Source: Chondrosia reniformis (Eukaryota; Porifera; Demospongiae; Chondrillida; Chondrillidae). Taken from it: a DNA stretch of 64,000 nt. Shown here one piece after another: positions 3,559 through 64,000 of this stretch. The stretch covers positions 6,258,884-6,322,883 of the forward strand of contig OX359199.1 in the NCBI GenBank assembly GCA_947172415.1, read 5' to 3'. Every line of letters starts with the position of its first letter. The stretch's first letter is position 1. A model generated the notes under the pieces. The model was not told the DNA's origin. It worked only from the letters and a program-made list of their open reading frames with translations, and made no database searches. The position numbers were made by a program, and so were the translations under genes.

Positions 3559-3642
3559 TTAAAATTCAAATTTACACTATATAATTTATAAATTATTTAC
3601 ATAGATACTGAAAATATTATGTATGTCATTCGCATTTTAAAA

Positions 3643-6600
3643 TCACATGTTGCTGATCAAAGTTAAAATGTCCGCCTTCACCAGAGATGCTGAAGGTCTG
3701 GCTTTTGGGTCAACTTGCAACATTGTCTTCAGTAAATCAACAAACTGCTCTGAATACTGACTGCAAAGGTGATATTTGAGGACAGTCACACAACATAAGC
3801 AGTAGTAATATTTCTATGTAATAATAACGTATGAGTATATATACGTATACAGTATGGAAGCAATGAGGTGTTCAGTGAGCCACAAAGTTCAATTACTACT
3901 AAAACTTCAAAAAGAGCTGAAAACTGAAGTATTCATATTCTTCTTGTCTGCAGACTTACTGTTCACTTGGGAGGGGTATTCGTCCACTGACTGCGGAAGT
4001 AGCTGATCCATCACAACATCTTCTCCCTGCAGAGTATACGATACTAACTGGAGGCATACTACCTCAATGGATGGGACAGTGAGACAGTGCATACTACCCC
4101 AATAGATGGGACAGTGAGACAGTGCATACTACCCCAATGGATGGGACAGTGAGACAGTGCATACTACCTCAATGGATGGGACAGTGAGACACTGCATACT
4201 ACCCCAATAGATGGGACAGTGAGACAGTGCATACTACCACAATGGATGGGACAGTGAGACAGTGCATACTACCACAATGGATGGGACAGTGAGACAGTGC
4301 ATACTACCCCAATGGATGGGACAGTGAGACAGTGCATACTACCCCAATGGATGGGACAGTGAGACACTGCATACTACCCCAATGGATGGGACAGTGAGAC
4401 AGTGCATACTATCACAATGGATGGGACAGTGAGACAGTGCATACTACCCCAATGGATGGGACAGTGAGACACTGCATACTACCCCAATGGATGGGACAGT
4501 GAGACAGTGCAGACTACCCCAATGGATGGGACAGTGAGACAGTGCAGACTACCACAATGGATGGGACAGTGAGACAGTGCATACTACCACAATGGATGGG
4601 ACAGTGAGACAGTGCATACTACCACAATGGATGGGACAGTGAGACAGTGCATACTACCACAATGGATGGGACAGTGAGACAGTGCATACTACCACAATGG
4701 ATGGGACAGTGAGACAGTGCATACTACCCCAATAGATGGGACAGTGAGACAGTGCATACTACCACAATGGATGGGACAGTGAGACAGTGCATACTACCAC
4801 AATGGATGGGACAGTGAGACAGTGCATACTACCCCAATAGATGGGACAGTGAGACAGTGCATACTACCACAATGGATGGGACAGTGAGACAGTGCATACT
4901 ACCACAATGGATGGGACAGTGAGACAGTGCATACTACCACAATGGATGGGACAGTGAGACAGTGCATACTACCTCAATGGATGGGACAGTGAGACAGTGC
5001 ATACTACCACAATAGATGGGACAGTGAGACAGTGCATACTACCACAATGGATGGGACAGTGAGACAGTGCAGACTACCACAATAGATGGGACAGTGAGAC
5101 AGTGCATACTACCCCAATAGATGGGACAGTGAGACAGTGCATACTACCCCAATGGATGGAACAGTGAGACAGTGCTATTATCCTAAGGAAGAACTCACAA
5201 AATGCTGCTTCAAACATTGTGCATCCTAATGACCATATATCCACGGCCTCTGTAATTTCAGCATCATAAGGCACCTCAAACAGTTCCGGAGCTCTTTATT
5301 AGGAAAAGAATAGTTAAACAGAAATACATGTGTCCTTTGAATAGGTTTAAATGTTCAAACAAGATAAATATGTAAATGCATGACCTAATAAATTTAAATG
5401 ATTTAATACAAATACAATCTGATAGACAGCTGTTGAGTACTTTGAGCTAGCTAGCTCATGGAATTCCCAGAAACAGCTGTCTGACCCAGTGGAGAAGAAG
5501 ATGAAAGAGAGGAAAGGAAGAAAGAAAAGACTCCTGTATCTTCATCCAAAGCTCACGCCAGGTTTAGTTCCCCTATAGGCTTTTTTACAGAATAGGCACA
5601 GCATGTAGGAAAATGATGTATTAGATTTTTCATATTATGAGAACACATATCAAACAGTAAGTACATATCATCAGGACACAACTGACCTGTAATTAGCTGT
5701 ACAAATCTGAGCAGCGAGCTCCTGCAGTGACAGAGCTTCTTGTCTGCAGCATTTAGACAGATACACTTAGTGAGTATAAAATACGAGCGACCTTATAAGG
5801 TACCTTCACGGCAAACTAACCTAGTTTGTAACACTACTCTGGCTGGATACAAACTGCCAAAATCCATTAATATCAACTCTTTCTGATTATCAGACAATAA
5901 CAAGTTTCCAGGCTACACAGCAAAGAATACTAATTAGTATACGTACATTAATCTTTCCAAGATGATGTTTGTCAGTACAACAAATTCTTTGAGGTAAGCA
6001 GCACCCTCCAGCAGATAAATACCTTGACATCTCTGTGTGCCAGTGGAACTGTGTGAGTGTGAAGAGCATTTAAGCCATCACAGACACCAACAAATAGAGA
6101 CAGCAAATCCTTTTCTGGAAGTGGACTGTTTGTAGTGGAGGACCTCTCAATCAGTGACTCAAGAGTACCTTCCTACATTAGCACAGGAAACAACCTCACT
6201 ATATATAGTCAATATGAATATCAGTAACCATTCTCAAACATCATGAAGAGGGAAAAACACGAAAAAAAGCAATTGCTGGGATTGAACCCACAACTGGCTA
6301 CAACATGCTCTGACACTCCAAATAAGGATTATCTCTCTCCATATAGAGTTTACAGTAGTTCCAATTCAGAGGGTTCACTCATTACATTCATATCATACGT
6401 ACGTATACTTGAAACTCCACAACAAAATAAATTACAACATTTCATACATTTGCTTGTAAAGTTAGCTGTGGTACATCGCTAATGGTGTGACTAAATTAAT
6501 TCTGGCATCATAAATGTGGTGATGGGAGGATTTGTACATTTTGGAAACACACAGTAACTATACACAATAATATCACTTTCATTTTATTGTATAAAGTCAT

Positions 6601-28489: not shown

Positions 28490-28930
28490 ACCATTCAGGC
28501 CTACCAGCGTGGAGCCTCGGGTAAGGAAGTAAGTCCGAACTCGTTGGCTTGGTAGTGTCTAGGTTCCGTAGCTGCCCTGTATCGGTTGGTGCCATGGGGA
28601 TGTGCTCACCAATTATCGATTTATCGATACAACGGAACCCGGGGACGGATAAGGCCGGTTCTGTCACTCTGTGACTACCAAAGCCGAAACTGCACCAGTT
28701 AGGCGTTACCAACGATCCTGGCCCCAGACGACCAGCGATGGAAGGACGGCTCGCATTGTGGATGGTAACGTGAACTCCCTGCGTCGAGCAAAATCCAAGT
28801 CACACCTCCTCGCGGTGCTCGACGGTAACAGCAGTCTCTGCTGGCTAACGTGACTGGTCTTTTTTCTCTTCTTTCTTTTGCTGATTATCCTTCGATTATA
28901 GCAAGAGGGTTCAAAACCCACTCTAGCGGC
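28490..28930. other. GC-richer island, probable transposable-element fragment
   Basis: Base composition changes sharply from the flanks: CpG-containing sequence such as GGAACCCGGGGACGGATAAG and CCAGACGACCAGCGATGG. It contains an inverted repeat CGTCGAGCA / TGCTCGACG (28782-28823). The end is pyrimidine-rich with GGGTTCAAAACCC. I find no recognisable protein. Confidence 0.35.
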
Positions 28931-36600: not shown

Positions 36601-37418
36601 TACGGCTCACAACCGCAGATATAGAAGCAACTGCTGTATCCATTCATCTACATGCTTTATTATATTACTACGTGTAGTATGTGTATTAGTATATTCAGTA
36701 TATTACTACAAACAGTACGTATATTACTACATTCAGTATATTACTACAAACAGTACGTATAGTAGTACCATGTTCCAATAAAGATTCCTGTTAGCTAATT
36801 GGAAACATGTGACTAGCATAAACCGTTGCACGGTTGCCTACAAATTGTCTACCTGATTGGAATGCAGAGTCATCTTGAACTTTTCAAAGTAGTACCACTT
36901 TCTAGCTTCATTCTCTTCCAAATCGTGATAATACATTCAGTACCTAGATAGATCTTTGGGTTATTTTAATATATGGTGCTACAGCTTTCTATTGAGATTA
37001 ACTGTACATTCTCATGATCCATTTACTGTAAGGAGTTCTCTGTGTCAACATTGTTAACCTCTGCATATTTGGGTCCTAACCAATTTGTGCCTTCCTTGCA
37101 ACACTATATACCTCTCCCTTTTTATGGACTTGTAGCTTGATTTGTGTGTGTTATGGAACATTGTTGTTATCTTAAGGCCTATATATGGTGGTGGAATCCA
37201 ATTGTGTCAGTCTTGCCAGTCTTGTTAACACAAAACTTATTTATTCATATCTCTCCACCAAATGGATTTTTCTTTAATTGTATGACTGTCTCTTCATTTT
37301 ATCAAGTCCTTAACTCCATATTTAGACTATAGTGAAAGCGGATATAGTCAAGTACAGCAACACTCCTAAACAAGTCACTAACCAGAAATCTACCAGTTCA
37401 ATATGCTCCCTCCAATAA
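33620..37418 (+). CDS. RAB28: RAB28 small GTPase
   Basis: Seven exons: 33620-33797, 33971-34059, 34500-34632, 35442-35514, 36456-36486, 36558-36635, 37326-37418; 224 residues (human 221). Motifs: P-loop [17 protein letters not shown], the RAB28-type DIGGQT in place of [31 protein letters not shown] restored across the exon 3/4 junction, FVSAKS, and KADIVKY near the end. It ends in CSLQ, a CaaX box for farnesylation as in human RAB28 rather than the double cysteine of most Rabs. RAB28 works with cilia and intraflagellar transport and in membrane shedding. Intron 4 holds a 13-bp minisatellite, and intron 6 holds a reversed fragment of the HSPA12-like gene. The polyadenylation signal is AATAAA at 37650-37655. 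Confidence 0.93.
35536..35889. repeat. 13-bp minisatellite in RAB28 intron 4
   Basis: About 27 copies of TGTGTACCTCAAG with variants CGTGTACCTCAAG and TGTGCACCTCAAG, beginning right after the donor site at 35515. All three plus-strand frames are open because 13 is not a multiple of three, so they translate to shifted versions of one peptide. These are not genes. Confidence 0.95.
36684..36932 (-). pseudogene. Inverted partial copy of HSPA12-like exon 1 / intron 1
   Basis: This RAB28-intron segment is the near-identical reverse complement of about 41546-41790, which spans the last 77 bp of exon 1 of the plus-strand HSPA12-like gene, its GTAGAC donor and the start of intron 1, including the ATACGTACTGTATGTAGTAA repeat. 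Only a handful of substitutions separate the copies, so the event is recent. The fragment has no start codon, no catalytic region and no downstream exons. Confidence 0.85.
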
Positions 37419-41169: not shown

Positions 41170-44100
41170 ATGATGTATGGTAGTTCGAAAGGAGATGATA
41201 GAAGGCGTTCAGTCCCTTCGACAAGAATGACTGAAAATGGTTTTATTGGCCCTCAGTCTTACAATGCCAAGAAAACGCTGTCTCGGAGCTCCAGCTCTTC
41301 GAGTAGCAAATCTGCCAAGACCAACGGTCACAATTCGGATTATCACTTCGTAGTAGCGGCCATTGACTTTGGGACAACATACAGTGGCTACGCGTTCTCT
41401 TTCACGAGGGACCCCGACAGTATTCGCATGATGCGAAAATGGGAGGGAGGGGACCCTGGAGTCACTAACCAGAAGACGCCCACTACGGTACTACTGAAGC
41501 CCAATGGCGAGTTTCATTCGTTTGGATTCTCGGCGAGAGATTTTTATCACGATTTGGAAGAGAATGAAGCTAGAAAGTGGTACTACTTTGAAAAGTTCAA
41601 GATGACTCTGCATTCCAATCAGGTAGACAATTTGTAGGCAACCGTGCAACGGTTTATGCTAGTCACATGTTTCCAATTAGCTAACAGGAATCTTTACTGG
41701 AACATGGTACTACTATACGTACTGTATGTAGTAATATACTGAATTTAGTAATATACGTACTGTATGTAGTAATATACTGAATTTAGTAATATACGCCACT
41801 ACAAGTACAAGAATAAAAGAAAAGACTTAGTAATAATTGCATTCTGTTTACCCACTAATATTTGAGGAGATGTGTTTATAAATACTTTAGGTGCTACATA
41901 TAGAATGCTGATCCTGTAGTATATGTGATGTATATGATGAATCTAGATCTGTATCAAGTTTTACTCTTCTCCATATTTGATTAGTTACAATTTGACAGTA
42001 TGTACTTCACTATTCTGAGCGTGTCTTCCATCTTTAATTTCATGTATATATGTAATGTAATCCTGGTACTGAGCCTCTAAGATTTCCAATATTGGCATCA
42101 AATTTATATAACTTAAAGACATAAAATACATTGTACATCTTGTTTTATGAGTACAGCTAGTACATAATATTATTATTGAATGTAGTATTGTCGTGGATTA
42201 ACTGGCCTTGACCCTTCTCTCCCTCCATATTCTCAAGAGTGATATTGCCTGATTGTATGATTGATTATGGTGCAACTTGCTCAAAGTACTCTACTAATCA
42301 GCAGGATATATGTGTTGTTTATTAACCAAACTAGTTGTGTTTGTTGGACAACAATTATTATTGGTATCAGCACTTACATTTACATACTGAAATTATTGGT
42401 ATCAGCTCACTTACATATACCATTGATGCTGGTTCCAGATCCATTGCATAAAGTGTCTGCGTGTTTATGTTAAATGATCAGTGACCTATTTGTTAGTTCA
42501 CACTTTGTGCAAAGATCTGTGTTTAATTCAACCTAATCTGTGAATTTACGTGTGCATCATGTAGCAAGTCAAATCCATTCACTTAATTAATAGGCACCAC
42601 TGTTGGTGGTGTGTTGCAGCCATTAAAGACCTGGTATCATGTATCCAATCATAGTGGGCATGCATCCCAGCAAACAGGAAAACATGTTGATAGTATATCC
42701 AATATTCGCCCACAGGAGGTGTGGTGTGGTACATTTTGTTTCTCAAGTTTGCTTCTGTGTATCTGTGCTCTACTTGACTACAAGTATTTGCATACCTGAC
42801 ATTCATGCTTACATGACTTCTCAACCATTATTTCAATTATAAATTAGCACACACTGTCTCTCTATGTAGGATTTGCATAAAGGGGTTGAGATTCAAGCAG
42901 CCAATCGAAAAAGGATGCTAGCCTTAAAAGTATTTTCATATGCCTTGAGGTTCTTCAAGGAACACTGTCTCCAGGAGCTCTCAGATCAATCAGCCACTAG
43001 GATAGTCAACGAGGACATTAGATGGGTCATTACAGTTCCAGCCATTTGGAGACAACCAGCAAAGCAGTTTATGAGACAGGCTGCTTATGATGTAAGGGGA
43101 TTCATTTCATATTAGTACATCTGTGTCATGAAACCTGATGGATTATCTTAATTTATTATTCTAAGACTTGTCTGATATCCTATAAGTACGCATCTCAAAG
43201 GTTTATAACAAATCTGCTTACACATAACTGTTTTTACAGACTTGCCTTATCTACAAGTGACTACAACTAACAAGTCCCTTAAGGCAATTGATATATTCAC
43301 TAAACAGTTCTTTATCTACCTCTGGTAATGTAAAACCAATTGTTGGTTGACAATATGATAAAGTGATTACTTGTGTCTTTAAAACGTAATCCTTTCTTAT
43401 CAAGCAAATACTGTCTATACGAAATGTCACATACATTCTTTGCTATATGAGGTAATGATTTATATTATGTATACATGTATGTGTGCATGATGTGTAAGTG
43501 ATTTATGTTACTGTTGTTTTTAAAGGCTGGGCTGGCATCTCCTAGCAACCCAAGTCAACTGTTGATTGCACTAGAGCCAGAAGCTGCCTCCATTTACTGC
43601 AGAAAACTGAAACAAAGAGAATGTGTTCCTGACGATGACCACTCTACTTCTGGAACTTTTGGATCTTCGTTATCACTGAAACCTCAAAGACAGTCTACTT
43701 CCTCCCTTGCATCAAGTAATCCTTCACTTCCAGTGTCAACAGACTTCAAGGCTGGAACGCGATACCTTGTTGTAGACTGTGGAGGCGGAACTGTAGACTT
43801 GACAGTACATGAAATAGAGGTTGGAGGAACAATAAAGGAACTCTATAAAGCATCCGGTGGCGCATGGGGAGCTATTGGAGTTGATCAGGAGTTTGAAGAA
43901 TTATTGAAAAGAATATTTGGTATAGATTTTGTTCTGAGCTTCAAGTCAACCAAACCTGCCGGTTGGGTTGATCTCATGATTGCTTTTGAAGCAAAGAAAA
44001 GAACAGCAAGTCCTACTAAATCAAACCCACTCAATATTTCACTTCCGTTCTCTTTCATCGAACACTATCAGAAGCTAAAAGGCCAAAATGTAGAGGCTGC

Positions 44101-51832: not shown

Positions 51833-53189
51833 TTAAAAGTCTTGTTTTAGCTTTTCTAATTCGAGGAGATTACTGGAAATGTTAATGTTATGTTTGGATT
51901 GTCTCTCAAGGTATATTGAGTAGTAAAGTAGGACTTTTTGTAGAGTTGACTTTTTCAACTTGAAAGTGTGAACTTCAGGTTCCATGTTAGCTTCCACGCT
52001 TGTTATCATTGTTTTGCAATCCAAAAGGAAGATGTACGCCCCGCCCAAGTACTCATGTAGGTGTGGCTGGGTGGTCCAGTGGATATCAGCCATTGACAGA
52101 GCAACCCTGATAAGAACGGTTTCAAGAAATGCATAATCTTTTAATAAGTCCTTTTCAGCTAAGACCTTCAGTGCAGGCCCCACTGTTCTTTTCAGCCAAT
52201 TGGTGATGGGTTTGCAGAGACGTTCTGGAAACTCCCTCTTATCTTTATACTTTATCAAAAGGCTCTTTAGTTTCAGCAAATCAATATATTCGTCTTCCTC
52301 TCCATCTGTAGCTTCACAGCTCATTCTGAATGGGATGTACAGCTGTGGATGTGTTTGGTGACTAGTTACCGATGACTCAATGTCATTATATATTGTAGAA
52401 GAGTGATACAAATGCGGAAGATAGACTGGAAACCTCATCAAATAAATCTTTCAGTGCCACAATCTTCTGATTCTTCTCACCTCTGTGAATCATCCTTGGA
52501 AGAGAGAAGTGAAGGAAATATGAAACGACAGACATATTCAAGAGAGGATCTACCCACGAGGTTTCATCTTGTCTGCAAGCAGAGAGGACTACCAGTTTGT
52601 CACCACCGAAACCCATCTTACCAATCTGGTTAACAAAGCTACTTGCATAACAGCAATCCAGAATCAACCACACATATCTACCATGGAAGTTTCCCTTGTT
52701 GAATATACAGCTTATGAGGTCTTCTGCTTTCAGTTGGTCATTCTTGTGGTGTTCTCCATGTTTCCTCATGAGCAGCGATAAAACTCCTTTGGAGACAGAA
52801 CTGTGACCAGAAAAGACAACTATAAGTATTCCTTCCTCTGCCACTTTGCTTGCTTGTGAGATGAGAGCTCCAGACACTCCAGAAGAGGTGGCTAATTCCT
52901 CGTCCTTTGAGGAGATTATCTTTACAATATTCTCATTTGGTATCTCTAGTGTCTTTGTAAATCTTTGACAATACCCTTGAACATCCTTGTGACAGCAGGG
53001 AAGGTTGCTAGGGCCTCTACCTCCCTCAGCAGCTGAATATGTATCAATACCTACACACAGCGCTCTGCTCCTGAGAGAGTTAAACTGCAGGGACAGATGT
53101 TCACTCTGCAGCCTGTAGTGACTCTCTTTAACAAGCCTTTTGTTGTCTAATGCCAATCTTATACAACCTTTTGAAGTAGAACTGCCCAT
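51833..53189 (-). CDS. Caspase-like (peptidase C14 fold) protein with N-terminal lipidation motif
   Basis: Two exons on the minus strand, 53189-52434 and 52342-51833, joined across a 91-bp intron; 421 residues. The core has the C14 layout: strand RALCVGIDTY, a DVQGYCQRFTKTL helix, ILIVVFSGHSS with catalytic His129, then YVWLILDCCYASS with the likely catalytic Cys180 in the DCCYA context typical of metacaspase/paracaspase-like proteins, followed by LVVLSACRQDE. The start MGSSTSKGC fits N-myristoylation at Gly2 plus a possible palmitoylation site at Cys9; the upstream in-frame ATG (53222) would remove this. There is no CARD or death domain. The C-terminal 170 residues are helical and unrecognised. 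It converges on the ENPP gene. Function is unknown; a protease role in cell death or immunity is only inference. Confidence 0.75.
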
Positions 53190-56501: not shown

Positions 56502-59500
56502 TCATTCCACATCAGTTGAGTTGTCGTGCTGTGATTGAGCATGGGACTGGGTGACTTCACCTGACATCTGTTGGGGGTGTGGCCTAAGAGAGGGGTGTGG
56601 CCTGGGAGGGAGGTGTGGGCTGGGAGGGAGGAGCAGACTAAGAGAGGAGTGTGGCCTAAGAGAGGAGTGTGGCTGATACTGCATGCCTGGGTGATGTTGG
56701 GCTGACTGAACTGGGACAACTTCACTGTGATGAGAATGTCTGTACATTGGAGGTTGAGAAGATGGAATTGGGAGGGAGGAAGGGAGAAGCATGTGGGCTG
56801 GGAGGGAGGAGTTGACTAAGAAAGGGGTGTGACCTTGGAAAAGAGTATGGCTGATACTGCATGCCTGGGTGAGGGTTGTAGAGGGGCCTGGACTGGGAGT
56901 GGAAGGTGAAGGAGGACCAACTGGACTGTGATGAGAATGTCTGTACATTGGAGGTTGTTGAGAAGATGGAATTGGAGGTCTATAATACTCAGAAGTAGAG
57001 GAATGCAATGGAGGAGCTCTTGTCTGATGTTGTGGTGGTACTGAAGGTCCTCCTTGTATTACTCCACTATGGGGTCTGATGACAGCACACTGAAATGAGC
57101 CCAGTGGTCTGGATGATGGAGACTGAGGAGTGAGTGATCTTGCAGGTTGACTGAATGGATCTGTAGACAACAAAAGGAATTGTTAGCAGATCATAAGAGG
57201 AATGAGCACTAAATATTCATCATATCATTGCTTTGTTGTTACATACATACTGCTCTATTAGAAGAAATATCTAACAGGGGAGGGAGGGAGGGAGGGAGGG
57301 AGGGAGGGAGGGGGGCAAAATACAATGTAAGTAGTACAATTTTGAGGGGACAACCTAATTCAATATGTTAATTTCTTTTAAAATTGGCAATTTGACTTAC
57401 TTTAAGGAGGGATATTTTCAAGAGGGTTAAATGCCCTTCTCCCTAAAAAAGAACCCCTACAGGTTTTATTTAACATAATTTCCATCAAAATTAGCTGCTA
57501 GAGAGTAATAATTGCTTATCAATGAAATATTAATACTAGGTCACCTACTGTAGGTGATGAGGACTTTGGGGAATAATTATGTTACTTAACTCAATTCACT
57601 CACTAGTTGAATGAGACACTCTATTATTAGGCAACAGGTGAGACTGAGATGCAATTGAAAGGGCCTGACTCTCAGAATTTTTGTTACTCTTAAATATCTA
57701 CATACAATATGTACATACGTACAAGTTGACTGATCACTATATTTGTAGACAGAATATGTTACTTACTGATATAGTCATATGAACTATTACAAGTTCTCAT
57801 TCTTTTGCTGGGTTGTTCATCACCTCCTCCGGTCACTGGTCCACCTCCACCGGTCACTGGTCCACCTCCTCCGGTCACTGGTCCACCTCCACCGATCACT
57901 GGTCCACCTCCTCCGGTCACTGGTCCACCTCCACCGGTCACTGGTCCACCTCCTCCGGTCACTGGTCCACCTCCACCGGTCACTGGTCCACCTCCTCCGG
58001 TCACTGGTCCACCTCCACCGGTCACTGGTCCACCTCCTCCGGTCACTGGTCCACCTCCACCGGTCACTGGTCCACCTCCACCGGTCACTGGTCCACCTCC
58101 ATCGGTCACTGGTCCACCTCCTAGTGGTGTATATACCAAATATTCAATAGATCTGTACTCTACAACTCTTTAATTATTGTACGTGGGACCCAATCCACTA
58201 CATCATTAGACTGCATGACATGTCACTCACTCAATGACTGTCTTGTCTCAAGTGTCTTTAGGACACACCCATCATTACTCCATTCAAACATCTCTTTTGA
58301 AGAGTAAGATATTTCAGACTGCAAGTCACACACAATAGTTGGATATCGTCTAAGAAGATTGTTATCAAACTTCATTGCAAAGTCAATTTTGTGAAGATTG
58401 GCTGCAACTCCTTCTAAAATGGACAGCATCAATTCCATCCATGATGTGTCTTCCTAAAATCAAAGTTAAATTAGTCTTAGCTGTGCGTATATAATCATTA
58501 TTATAAATGTTTATATGACAAACACACACATACACATACGTACACACACTGGACATTACTCCATATTGTATAGACTATCAGTGTACAAACATACTTTACA
58601 CTGAGTATCAAGACTCATTTGAATGATAACAGTGACATCAAATCTAGTCCAATATAAACATCACGTACCAACAAGTGTTGGGTAGAAGGTTGAGTGTGAA
58701 AAATGATCTCCACAACCTTTAAATTGCACTGTGAAAACACTTCTCTCAGTTTTGGGAGTGCTTCTATATCAGCACTTGACTAAATAAGAAAATCATGAAA
58801 ATAACAAAACAGCTACATACGTACGTACATAAACACACTAATAAATATTGTAACTCTATTAACAGGTTAATATGAAGTAATGTACAGCAAAGGCAAGTCT
58901 CTTAAAACTGATGAAATATATCACATGATTCTGTTATATGTAACTGACAAGGAATTAAACAATTTGAAACTGAACACTGCAAGTTTCACTCTGTACAACA
59001 ATACACTGACACCTCTTTATACACTCTCAATTATTATATGGAACCATTTAATAAAAGTACCTCAATAATCCCAGCCATCACTTTGATCTCCTCCAACCTC
59101 TCTGCTTGTGCAATACCAATAAACAGATCCACCCACTCATGTAATGGAAAGTCCAGTTTAAGTCTACACTTGAGAGATGATGAGATGGGAACCACATCAG
59201 TTTGACCTTCCCAGAACTTGTCTAAATATTCATAACCTGCAAGCAAGGAGACACATGAGACACACATAGTCATGAAAGGCATTCTTTAGTGACTTAGTTA
59301 ACCAATAACATTTGAATGCTAATTAACAACAACAGGAACACTCAACTATAATATCAGTAATTCTACATTAAATTACTCATTTAGCAATCATTGTTCCTTT
59401 ATGTCTTTATCAAATACATATGTATATACAATAATGGAATCCTCTAAAGTATGCACTTACCACCATGATTACAGATGCACACATCTGTGGTACTTGTATT

Positions 59501-62500
59501 GTACAAGGCACCAAGTAACAGTGACCGTATCAATGGATACACCCTTCGCTTCTGTACTAAGACACCAAATCTTTTCAAAGAAGGCATGTTCTTGAGTGAT
59601 GCAATAACACTTTCATATAATCCTTGATCAACTGGTTCATCAGTTTCCTATAATAAAGTAAAAAGGCTATTACTAAAGCTTCTCATGTACAACATCTCTA
59701 ATAATTTATGTACATATACTGTACCTACCAAATGTAATGTAAGTTGGAGCACACTGAAAAACTACAATTGTACTATGATTACACTTCTCAATAGCAATAT
59801 GGGACATTTACACTATAACCTCAATAATAGGACATGTACACATATAATACTTGCTGCATAGGGAGGAAGGAACTGCTACAATATGAGGTCACTATATTAT
59901 ATGTGTGACCATATAGTGGAGGACACTATCATTATAACACACAACTGTAGTTCTAGGACACTCAGTTGTCAAACTGCATGTCATAGAGTGTCATCTTTAT
60001 ACATCAACAGAGTACCAACTATAGAATCAACTGGTTAAAATGGAGAAACAGAAAAGATAGATCTATATACGTACACATCACATAATTGTGGTTGGAATAT
60101 TCACAACCACACAAGAGGTTCATTGTACAACAAACACATTTCTAACAACTGATTGTACGTAGACACTTAGTAATCATTCATTTCACCTTAGCAATATACA
60201 ATATAGTCACGTTAACTAAAGACACCCACCCAACCCTATTGCACCTCATTTATGGACATTAAACAAGGCCTGATATATAATATACAGACGCTGTGGCTAC
60301 GTTCCATTTTGATGCATACATACATATGTAGGGGTTTCAAATATACTCTACATTCATGTCATTTTGACAGAGTAAGGTTATTCTCTCAAATATCTTTACA
60401 AGATAGGTACATAAACACACTAATCAATAGTGCAACTTTATTAACAGGTCAATATGAAGTAATGTACAGCAAAGGAAAGTCTTTTAAAACTGATGAAATA
60501 TATCACATGATTCTGTTATAACTGATAAGGAATTAAACAATGTGAAACTGAAAACTTCACATTTCACTCTGTACAACAATACACTGACACCTCTTCATAT
60601 ACTCTAAATTATTATATGAAACCATTTAATAAAAGTACCTCACTAATCCTAGCAATCACTTCGATCTCCTCCAACCTCTCTGCTTGTGCAATACCAATAA
60701 ACAGATCCACCCACTCATGTAATGGAAAGTCCAGTTCAAGTCTACACTTGAGAGATGATGAGATGGGAACCACATCAGTTTGACCTTTCCAGAACTTGTC
60801 TAAATATTCATAACCTGCAAGCAAGGAGACACATGAGACACACATAGTCATGAAAGGCATTCTTTAGTGACTTAGTTAACCAATAACATTTGAATGCTAA
60901 TTAACAACAACAGGAACACTCAACTATAATATCAGTAATTCTACATTAAATTACTCATTTAGCAATCATTGTTCCTTTATGTCTTTATCAAATACATATG
61001 TATATACAATAATGGAATCCTCTAAAGTATGCACTTACCACCATGATTACAGATGCACACATCTGTGGTACTTGTATTGTACAAGGCACCAAGTAACAGT
61101 GACCGTATCAATGGATACTCCCCGTTCGATACTAACACACCAAATCTTTTCAAAGAAGGCATATTCTTGAGTGATGCAATAACACTTTCATATAATCCTT
61201 GATCAACTGGTTCATCAGTTTCCTATAATAAAGTAAAAAGGCTATTACTAAAGCTTCTCATGTACAACATCTCTAATAATTTATGTACATATACTGTACC
61301 TACCAAATGTAATGTAAGTTGGAGCACACTGAAAAATTACAATTGTACTATGATTACACTTCTCAATAGCAATATGGGACATTTACACTATAACCTCAAT
61401 AATAGGACATGTACACATATAATACTTGCTGCATAGGAAGGAAGGAACTGCTACAATATGAGGTCACTATATTATATGTGTGACCATATAGTGGAGAACA
61501 CTATCACTATAACACACAACTGTAGTTCTAGGACACTCAGTTGTCAAACTGCATGTCATAGAGTGTCATCTTTATACATCAACAGAGTACCAACTATAGA
61601 ATCAACTGGTTAAAATGGAGAAACAGAAAAGATAGATCTATATACGTACACATCACATAATTGTGGTTGGAATATTCACAACCACACAAGAGGTTCATTG
61701 TACAACAAACACATTTCTAACAACTGATTGTACGTAGACACTTAGTAATCATTCATTTCACCTTAGCAATATACAATATAGTCACGTTAACTAAAGACAC
61801 CCACCCAACCCTATTGCACCTCATTTATGGACATTAAACAAGGCCTGATATATAATATACAGACGCTGTGGCTACGTTCCATTTTGATGCATACATACAT
61901 ATGTAGGGGTTTCAAATATACTCTACATTCATGTCATTTTGACAGAGTAAGGTTATTCTCTCAAATATCTTTACAAGACAGGTACATAAACACACTAATC
62001 AATAGTGCAACTTTATTAACAGGTCAATATGAAGTAATGTACAGCAAAGGAAAGTCTTTTAAAACTGATGAAATATATCACATGATTCTGTTATAACTGA
62101 TAAGGAATTAAACAATGTGAAACTGAAAACTTCACATTTCACTCTGTACAACAATACACTGACACCTCTTCATATACTCTAAATTATTATATGAAACCAT
62201 TTAATAAAAGTACCTCACTAATCCTAGCAATCACTTCGATCTCCTCCAACCTCTCTGCTTGTGCAATACCAATAAACAGATCCACCCACTCATGTAATGG
62301 AAAGTCCAGTTCAAGTCTACACTTGAGAGATGATGAGATGGGAACCACATCAGTTTGACCTTTCCAGAACTTGTCTAAATATTCATAACCTGCAAGCAAG
62401 GAGACACATGAGACACACATAGTCATGAAAGGCATTCTTTAGTGACTTAGTTAATCAATAACTTTTGAATGCTAATTAACAACAATAGAAACACTCAACT

Positions 62501-64000
62501 ATAATATCAGTAATTCTACATTAAATTACTCATTTAGCAATCATTGTTCCTTTATGTCTTTATCAAATACATATGTATATACAATAATGGAATCCTCTAA
62601 AGTATGCACTTACCACCATGATTACAGATGCACACATCTGTGGTACTTGTATTGTACAAGGCACCAAGTAACAGTGACCGTATCAATGGATACTCCCCTG
62701 GGTGTACACATACTAACACACCAAATCTTTTCAAAGAAGGCATATTCTTGAGTGATGCAATAACACTTTCATATAATCCTTGATCAACTGGTTCATCAGT
62801 TTCCTATAATAAAGTAAAAAGGCTATTACTAAAGCTTCTCATGTACAACATCTCTAATAATTTATGCACATACACTGTACCTACCAAATGTAATGTAAGT
62901 TGGAGCACACTGAAAAACTACAATTGTACTATGATTACACTTCTCAATAGCAATATGGGACATTTACACTATAACCTCAATAATAGGACATGTACACATA
63001 TAATACTTGCTGCATAGGAAGGAAGGAACTGCTACAATATGAGGTCACTATATTATATGTGTGACCATATAGTGGAGAACACTATCACTATAACACACAA
63101 CTGTAGTTCTAGGACACTCAGTTGTCAAACTGCATGTCATAGAGTGTCATCTTTATACATCAACAGAGTACCAACTATAGAATCAACTGGTTAAAATGGA
63201 GAAACAGAAAAGATAGATCTATATACGTACACATCACATAATTGTGGTTGGAATATTCACAACCACACAAGAGGTTCATTGTACAACAAACACATTTCTA
63301 ACAACTGATTGTACGTAGACACTTAGTAATCATTCATTTCACCTTAGCAATATACAATATAGTCACGTTAACTAAAGACACCCACCCAACCCTATTGCAC
63401 CTCATTTATGGACATTAAACAAGGCCTGATATATAATATACAGACGCTGTGGCTACGTTCCATTTTGATGCATACATACATATGTAGGGGTTTCAAATAT
63501 ACTCTACATTCATGTCATTTTGACAGAGTAAGGTTATTCTCTCAAATATCTTTACAAGACAGGTACATAAACACACTAATCAATAGTGCAACTCTATTAA
63601 CAGGTCAATATGAAGTAATGTACAGCAAAGGAAAGTCTTTTAAAACTGATGAAATATATCACATGATTCTGTTATAACTGATAAGGAATTAAACAATGTG
63701 AAACTGAAAACTTCACATTTCACTCTGTACAACAATACACTGACACCTCTTTATACACTCTCAATTATTATATGAAACCATTTAATAAAAGTACCTCACT
63801 AATCCTAGCAATCACTTCGATCTCCTCCAACCTCTCTGCTTGTGCAATACCAATAAACAGATCCACCCACTCATGTAATGGAAATTCCTGTTCAAGTGTA
63901 CACTTGAGAGATGATGAGATGGGAACCACATCAGTTTGACCTTTCCAGAGCTGGTTAAAACTTTCATAATCTGTAAGCAAGGAGACACATGAGACACACA
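56502..64000 (-). CDS. Leucine-rich-repeat-like protein with amplified exon pairs (5' end beyond window)
   Basis: Minus strand, running in from beyond 64000. Visible exons: 63970-63795, 62803-62614, 62389-62214, 61222-61039, 60814-60639, 59647-59461, 59236-59061, 58779-58669, 58453-58231, 58120-57767, 57160-56502, all in compatible phases. Two exons alternate: exon A (about 187 bp, ETDEPVDQGLYESVIASLKN to VCICNHG) and exon B (176 bp, YEYLDKFWKGQTDVVPISSS to AERLEEIEV), together about 121 residues per unit. Spacing of leucines (LPKLREVFSQCNLKVVEIIF, LSILEGVAANLHKIDFAM) suggests a leucine-rich-repeat solenoid. After it come a (GGGGPVT)n tract, a basic PSKRMRT motif and a Ser/Pro/His-rich tail with repeated PPMYRHSHHS. 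I do not recognise the family; an NLR-type or other immune receptor C-terminus is possible. A vertical run of identical introns argues for recent amplification. Confidence 0.65.
57279..57313. repeat. GGGA microsatellite
   Basis: Short run of GGGA tetramers in the last intron of the LRR-like gene. Confidence 0.9.
57814..58120. repeat. 21-bp coding minisatellite, (GGGGPVT)n
   Basis: About 14 copies of a 21-bp unit (CCGGTCACTGGTCCACCTCC plus one base), alternating CTCCTCC and CTCCACC versions. On the minus strand it encodes a seven-residue repeat, GGGGPVT, within the exon 58120-57767 of the LRR-like gene. The unit keeps the frame in every copy. Confidence 0.92.
58828..64000. repeat. 1.58-kb tandem segmental array, three full units plus a partial one
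   Basis: Units begin near 58828, 60406, 61982 and 63563 (steps of about 1578, 1576 and 1581 bp). Exons and introns are almost identical among units, apart from small differences such as GGGAGGAAGG versus GGAAGGAAGG. Each unit holds one A exon and one B exon of the LRR-like gene. The fourth unit is cut by the window end and its B exon is more diverged at the 5' end (DYESFNQLW in place of GYEYLDKFW). Confidence 0.93.

Follow-up and report, generated by a model that had tools for sequence, protein, structure and literature searches.

The window analysed here, a 64,000-nucleotide stretch of the Chondrosia reniformis genome (C11:6258884–6322883), carries on its minus strand a tandem array of 1.58 kb units that runs on beyond the window and in which two exons, A and B, alternate (Table 1). 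The assembly (GCA_947172415.1) comprises 117.37 Mb in 14 chromosomes plus the mitochondrion, as given in the available part of the genome report (PMC12181767); our genome searches covered 117,379,552 bases in 15 contigs. Exon A measures 187, 184 and 190 nt in units 1–3, and exon B 176 nt in each unit. Read from the sequence, both the start of exon A and the end of exon B are in phase 0, so duplication of an A+B unit keeps the reading frame. In self-BLAST comparisons, the long pairs within the array were 98.1% and 96.9% identical and the end pair 92.3%.

An earlier, first-pass annotation of this DNA described three tandem copies of exon A. Three do lie in the window, but the array contains four, the fourth unit having its loop, LDPMV, just beyond the window (C11:6323095–6323265), in an exon A that is about 8% diverged. 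Unit 4 is older than units 1–3. At its left end, unit 1 has 270 bases that are unlike those of units 2–4 and fall outside the near-identical block, and unit 4 differs from units 1–3 across most of the remaining unit sequence; the edges of the copied block therefore lie inside exon B.

Table 1. Positions of the array, its exons and loops, and related exons elsewhere. Coordinates are those of the window unless a contig or locus is named.
Feature	Position	Strand	Basis
Tandem array of 1.58 kb A–B units, running on beyond the window	58822–64000	minus	self-BLAST
Exon A, unit 1 (the final exon A in the transcript)	59461–59647	minus	open frame, acceptor TATAG, donor GTAAGTGC
Loop, unit 1 (QKRRV, 15 nt)	59541–59555	minus	sequence and translation
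Exon B, unit 1	59061–59236	minus	sequence reading
Exon A, unit 2	61039–61222	minus	open frame, acceptor TATAG, donor GTAAGTGC
Loop, unit 2 (SNGE, 12 nt)	61119–61130	minus	sequence and translation
Exon B, unit 2	60639–60814	minus	sequence reading
Exon A, unit 3	62614–62803	minus	open frame, acceptor TATAG, donor GTAAGTGC
Loop, unit 3 (CVHPGE, 18 nt)	62694–62711	minus	sequence and translation
Exon B, unit 3	62214–62389	minus	sequence reading
Exon B, unit 4 (exon A of this unit outside the window, about C11:6323085–6323266)	63795–63970	minus	sequence reading
Probable downstream exon of the same NLR-type gene (SSADIEALPKLREVF...), boundaries approximate	58668–58779	minus	open frame; inference
Probable last coding exon (EDTSWMELMLSILEG...), boundaries approximate	58223–58453	minus	open frame and weak relatives; inference
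Near-identical exons of an NLR gene on C1	L044:2262–2480, 3639–3850, 5729–5940		

The weak relatives of the probable last coding exon were found beside the related arrays on C8 and C12. Just past the end of the gene, positions 57821–58121 hold about 14 copies of a 21 bp unit with an open minus-strand frame that encodes (GPVTGGG)n. Elsewhere in the window we noted a match to an HDV-like ribozyme on the plus strand (28783–28855; RF02682, 45.4 bits, gathering threshold 44) and two arrays of 38 bp units 5 kb apart (36661–36768 and 41714–41795), the consensus units of which resemble, by eye, near reverse complements of each other.

The gene that carries the array

Past the window, an upstream open frame on the same strand encodes a NACHT domain (PF05729, 65.2 bits, E = 8e-18; cut-off 26.7), and the top 14 of its 17 PDB sequence matches are NLRP3. 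Another upstream frame on this strand gives a sub-threshold match to CARD (PF00619, 19.8 bits, E = 8e-4; cut-off 23.9). Genome-wide, NACHT matches number at least 101 (101 of 139 candidates scored), a lower bound because the window's own gene is absent among the matches listed; 44 of those listed are on C7, in dense clusters mostly at 0.9–2.8 Mb. From these domain and family matches we conclude that the array belongs to an NLR-type gene of a large family.

No Pfam LRR model matched the repeat exons tested, and for this reason we infer, rather than recognize, their LRR character. Matches to LRR_6 above the cut-off were located away from the NACHT clusters of C7. The sensor repeats of C. reniformis NLR-type genes thus seem to escape Pfam. 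If sponge NLR sensor repeats do so more widely, censuses based on domain models may undercount or misname these receptors.

Two further features lie in or near the gene. About 5 kb from its last open frame, a minus-strand open frame at 52389–53231 matches the caspase domain (PF00656, 23.6 bits; cut-off 21.4). Upstream of unit 4, at C11:6323753–6324380, is a broken reverse-transcriptase-like fragment, probably intronic, with an RVT_1 match of 16.7 bits that falls below the cut-off.

Loop and flank divergence in the array and its paralogues

The first-pass annotation placed in every exon A of the window a hypervariable in-frame loop, set in flanks that it called almost invariant. When we re-read the sequence, the coordinates, lengths and translations of the three loops were all as it had given them; in codon register the coordinates are one base lower (59540–59554, 61118–61129 and 62693–62710). 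Outside the loop, the 1.58 kb units differ at 9 (units 1 and 2), 18 (units 1 and 3) and 11 (units 2 and 3) of 1564 aligned sites, a divergence of 0.6–1.2%, and the flanks are as uniform as described except at the left end of unit 1. Over the 162 flanking exon bases, units 2 and 3 are identical and the other pairs among units 1–3 differ at two sites. Inside the loop, the same pairs in the same order show differences at 5 of 12, 8 of 15 and 5 of 12 alignable positions, with gaps of 3, 3 and 6 nt. The loop has therefore changed 46–72 times as fast as the sequence outside (Fisher p = 1.9e-8, 9.9e-12 and 4.1e-8, respectively). The loops had also been said to differ completely, and this is too strong: the excess over the flanks is large and the lengths do differ, but units 2 and 3 have GGGGAG in common. 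The loops of unit 1 and the fourth unit have their final GTG in common.

The start of exon B is nearly unvarying among units 1–3; at the exon's end, units 2–4 agree fully and only unit 1 differs, whose exon B sits partly in the older flank. In the intron of unit 3, four private substitutions fall within 35 bases (about 62455–62489, aligned to 59302–59336 of unit 1); this cluster may reflect a short tract of exchange.

Exon A has 23 clear members in the genome, itself included (four on C11, 15 on C8, two on C12 and two on C6); one weak match on C1 was left uncounted. In 19 of the 23, six residues separate the predicted strand from the following xP (xQ once), the exceptions being three loops on C11 (7, 8 and 7 residues) and one on C6 (7). 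The first-pass annotation had suggested seeking the same variable position in other paralogues and comparing its diversity with that of introns, and both comparisons came out in its favour in a gene of six tandem units on another chromosome, C8. With the loop position set in advance from C11, variable columns make up 10 of 21 in the loop of that gene and 184 of 863 in its introns (p = 0.0075). Its loop codons have a pN of 0.324, which is 3.6 times the intron value of 0.089, while the rest of exon A has a pN of 0.047 and a pS of 0.033. All differences in the C8 loop are amino acid-changing and none alters its length; a pS of 0 is not in itself proof of selection, because each pair offers only 3.7 synonymous sites. 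Two spots in exon B, at its start and its end, both following predicted strands and both chosen post hoc, are also raised in the C8 gene (pN 0.40 and 0.27, pS 0.19 and 0.13), whereas their C11 equivalents hardly vary.

In a comparison of 190 pairs drawn from 20 exons, nine of the 60 closest pairs listed have flank divergence of at most 3.7%; their loops are very different in six and identical in three. In an NLR gene on C1 whose exons are homologous to exon A, near-identical copies are set apart by 3 nt and some bases at the exon end, before the donor and after the second strand. In the single C7 gene sampled, no internal DNA repeats longer than 60 bases were found.

The loop had been expected to follow a strand directly, and an AlphaFold model of exon A from unit 3 agrees with this, with a strand at residues 26–31, a helix at 39–50 and the loop between them, albeit at low confidence (pLDDT 66). 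The relative on C1 (hhalign probability 90) is modelled with the same helix–strand–helix–strand order at a pLDDT of 88.5. Searches of PDB folds with the exon A and C1 fragments gave no clear match. The repeats may have an LRR-like fold, in which the loop may contact a ligand.

Origin of the loop variation

We think it probable that the loops are ligand- or partner-facing parts of an NLR-type receptor, in which recombination homogenises the repeats and diversifying selection acts on the loop. The loops would then be the variable parts of a sensor domain that is built of alpha/beta repeats and lies on the C-terminal side of NACHT. The frame-neutral A+B units would multiply by unequal crossing-over, and recombination would keep them alike, while in the loop behind the first exon A strand strong diversifying selection would favour novel sequences and, on C11, novel lengths too. 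The variants themselves would presumably come from ordinary mutation, from short in-frame insertions and deletions, and from exchange among units and alleles. The first-pass annotation had already raised diversifying selection on a contact loop, and the idea is strengthened by the recurrence in the C8 gene, by the exclusively amino acid-changing differences and the faster-than-intron rate there, and by the modelled position of the loop. The six close exon A pairs with very different loops speak for this reading as well, whereas the three with identical loops speak against it, as do the raised pS at the two exon B spots of C8 and the scant variation of those spots on C11. A hot spot of mutation alone should leave synonymous changes, and the C8 loop has none, although its synonymous sites are few. 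For the block-like length changes on C11, selection alone would suffice only if it were very strong or if loops were imported from other alleles. Gene conversion, which had also been proposed, is plausible: a run test with the loop sites omitted is suggestive (p = 0.017), but a window test is not (p = 0.81).

A localised germ-line process might instead rewrite the loop as a block, by untemplated break repair or from donors now absent, with selection filtering the products. The multi-base and length changes in all three C11 units, between flanks so little diverged, are what such a process would leave, and the unchanged exon flanks of units 2 and 3 would fit it as well. Nevertheless we regard it as unlikely. 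A search of the one haplotype, N stretches aside, found none of the three loops a second time within two mismatches, and the loops match the array over no greater lengths than shuffled sequences do, giving no sign of templated insertion. Block rewriting also sits poorly with the C8 loop, in which every change alters an amino acid although about 18% of the sites are synonymous, and with the six-residue length kept by most of the family. The targeted diversification that the first-pass annotation offered as an alternative finds no support in these searches for donors and templated insertion, and three of the nine close pairs have identical loops. Taken together, these points lead us to favour homogenised repeats under strong diversifying selection, with variants arising by ordinary mutation and by allelic exchange.

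Diversity-generating retroelements produce a short hypervariable coding spot. The reverse-transcriptase-like fragment upstream of unit 4 recalls them, but its match is sub-threshold and, unlike their products, the C11 loop changes include indels; no template repeat was found in the haplotype searched, N stretches aside, all 16 exon A matches at the DNA level being stop-free exon A frames. It seems improbable that a sponge NLR family carries one CDR-like loop per two-exon unit and that a germ-line or even somatic mechanism, acting on fewer than 20 nt, rewrites this loop as an in-frame block whose length varies. Were block rewriting real, an animal without lymphocytes would have interchangeable recognition loops arrayed inside one receptor.

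Alternatively, the loops might be old balanced alleles brought side by side by unequal crossing-over between haplotypes, their flanks having been homogenised by recombination. This would explain why no donor was found in one haplotype, and why three nearly equally diverged units each have a different loop. We doubt it strongly, since recombination would have had to remove linked differences almost up to the loop itself, within a few bases. That a surface loop has simply changed under relaxed constraint, without selection, is very improbable: a loop of a repeat solenoid may tolerate change, but a neutral loop should not outpace introns, as the C8 loop does, nor exceed its flanks as widely as on C11. 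An assembly or haplotype artefact, for which near-identical tandem units are a classic risk, is hardly credible given HiFi data of 10.31 Gb in 0.80 million reads (about 70×, mean read about 13 kb by division; figures from the available part of PMC12181767) with a mean read longer than the array of about 6 kb, in-frame blocks of 12, 15 and 18 nt that would hardly stem from sequence errors, and the same variability at a second locus.

Comparison with known systems

If diversifying selection on homogenised repeats is the right reading, the loop would mark the few residues of an NLR family likely to meet a ligand in an early-branching animal, and comparison of loops among individuals would offer a ready assay for invertebrate receptor diversification without somatic recombination. 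The first-pass annotation knew of no description of such loops. For sponges we likewise found none in titles and the starts of abstracts, wider queries on NLRs and on corals included, a search that covered subscription journals thinly; the principle, on the other hand, is known from fungal NLRs and brown-algal LRR-ROCO proteins. New as far as searched are the sponge case, the two-exon units, the length-variable loops and the recurrence of the site across chromosomes.

Yuen's 2014 account of the Amphimedon NLRs reportedly describes an expansion of NACHT receptors in a demosponge, some of them with CARD. The systems that follow are compared as the available parts of the cited articles present them. 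The NLRs of Dysidea avara likewise belong to the NACHT receptors that have expanded among demosponges and sometimes carry CARD, and the main text of that article contains none of the terms tandem, exon, hypervariab or positive selection (PMC12909245). Zebrafish NLR-B30.2 genes form a large animal NLR family shaped by gene conversion and positive selection, but there selection falls on the B30.2 domain and the LRRs are stated not to be particularly variable (PMC4852459). A sea urchin LRR NLR with high internal conservation (HIC) is an animal NLR with internally conserved repeats (Hibino 2006, cited in PMC12222747).

Two systems resemble the array in exon structure. Tetrahymena LRR genes have in-phase arrays of LRR exons multiplied by ectopic recombination; these are single exons of 90 bp, and the available text describes no hypervariable loop (PMC6564038). 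Brown-algal LRR-ROCO genes have tandem in-phase repeat exons, shuffling and, on the concave face, sites under positive selection, but encode a ROCO GTPase and use one 72 bp phase-2 exon per LRR, and no length-variable loop is described in the part available (PMC11378527).

The fungal HIC NLRs share with the sponge gene a NACHT receptor, near-identical repeats and a few hypervariable positions per repeat; their repeats are kept alike through recombination, as those of the sponge probably are. In examples such as the WD40 repeats of Podospora het-d, het-e and het-r, the repeats are near-identical and hypervariable positions under diversifying selection lie on the binding surface (PMC4986451, PMC12222747). 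HIC repeats are defined by an identity above 85% across 100 residues or more (PMC4986451). Across A+B, about 121 residues, units 1–3 exceed this: exon A is identical at 92–97% of residues to unit 3 and 90–92% to unit 1, and exon B at 52 of 58 or 58 of 58. By counting methods, the hypervariable, diversifying positions of the array are few, as in HIC. The fungal repeats are WD40, ANK or TPR repeats of 24–42 residues with fixed hypervariable positions (PMC4986451, PMC12222747), whereas the sponge array has alpha/beta repeats, a two-exon unit of 1.58 kb and a loop that changes in length.
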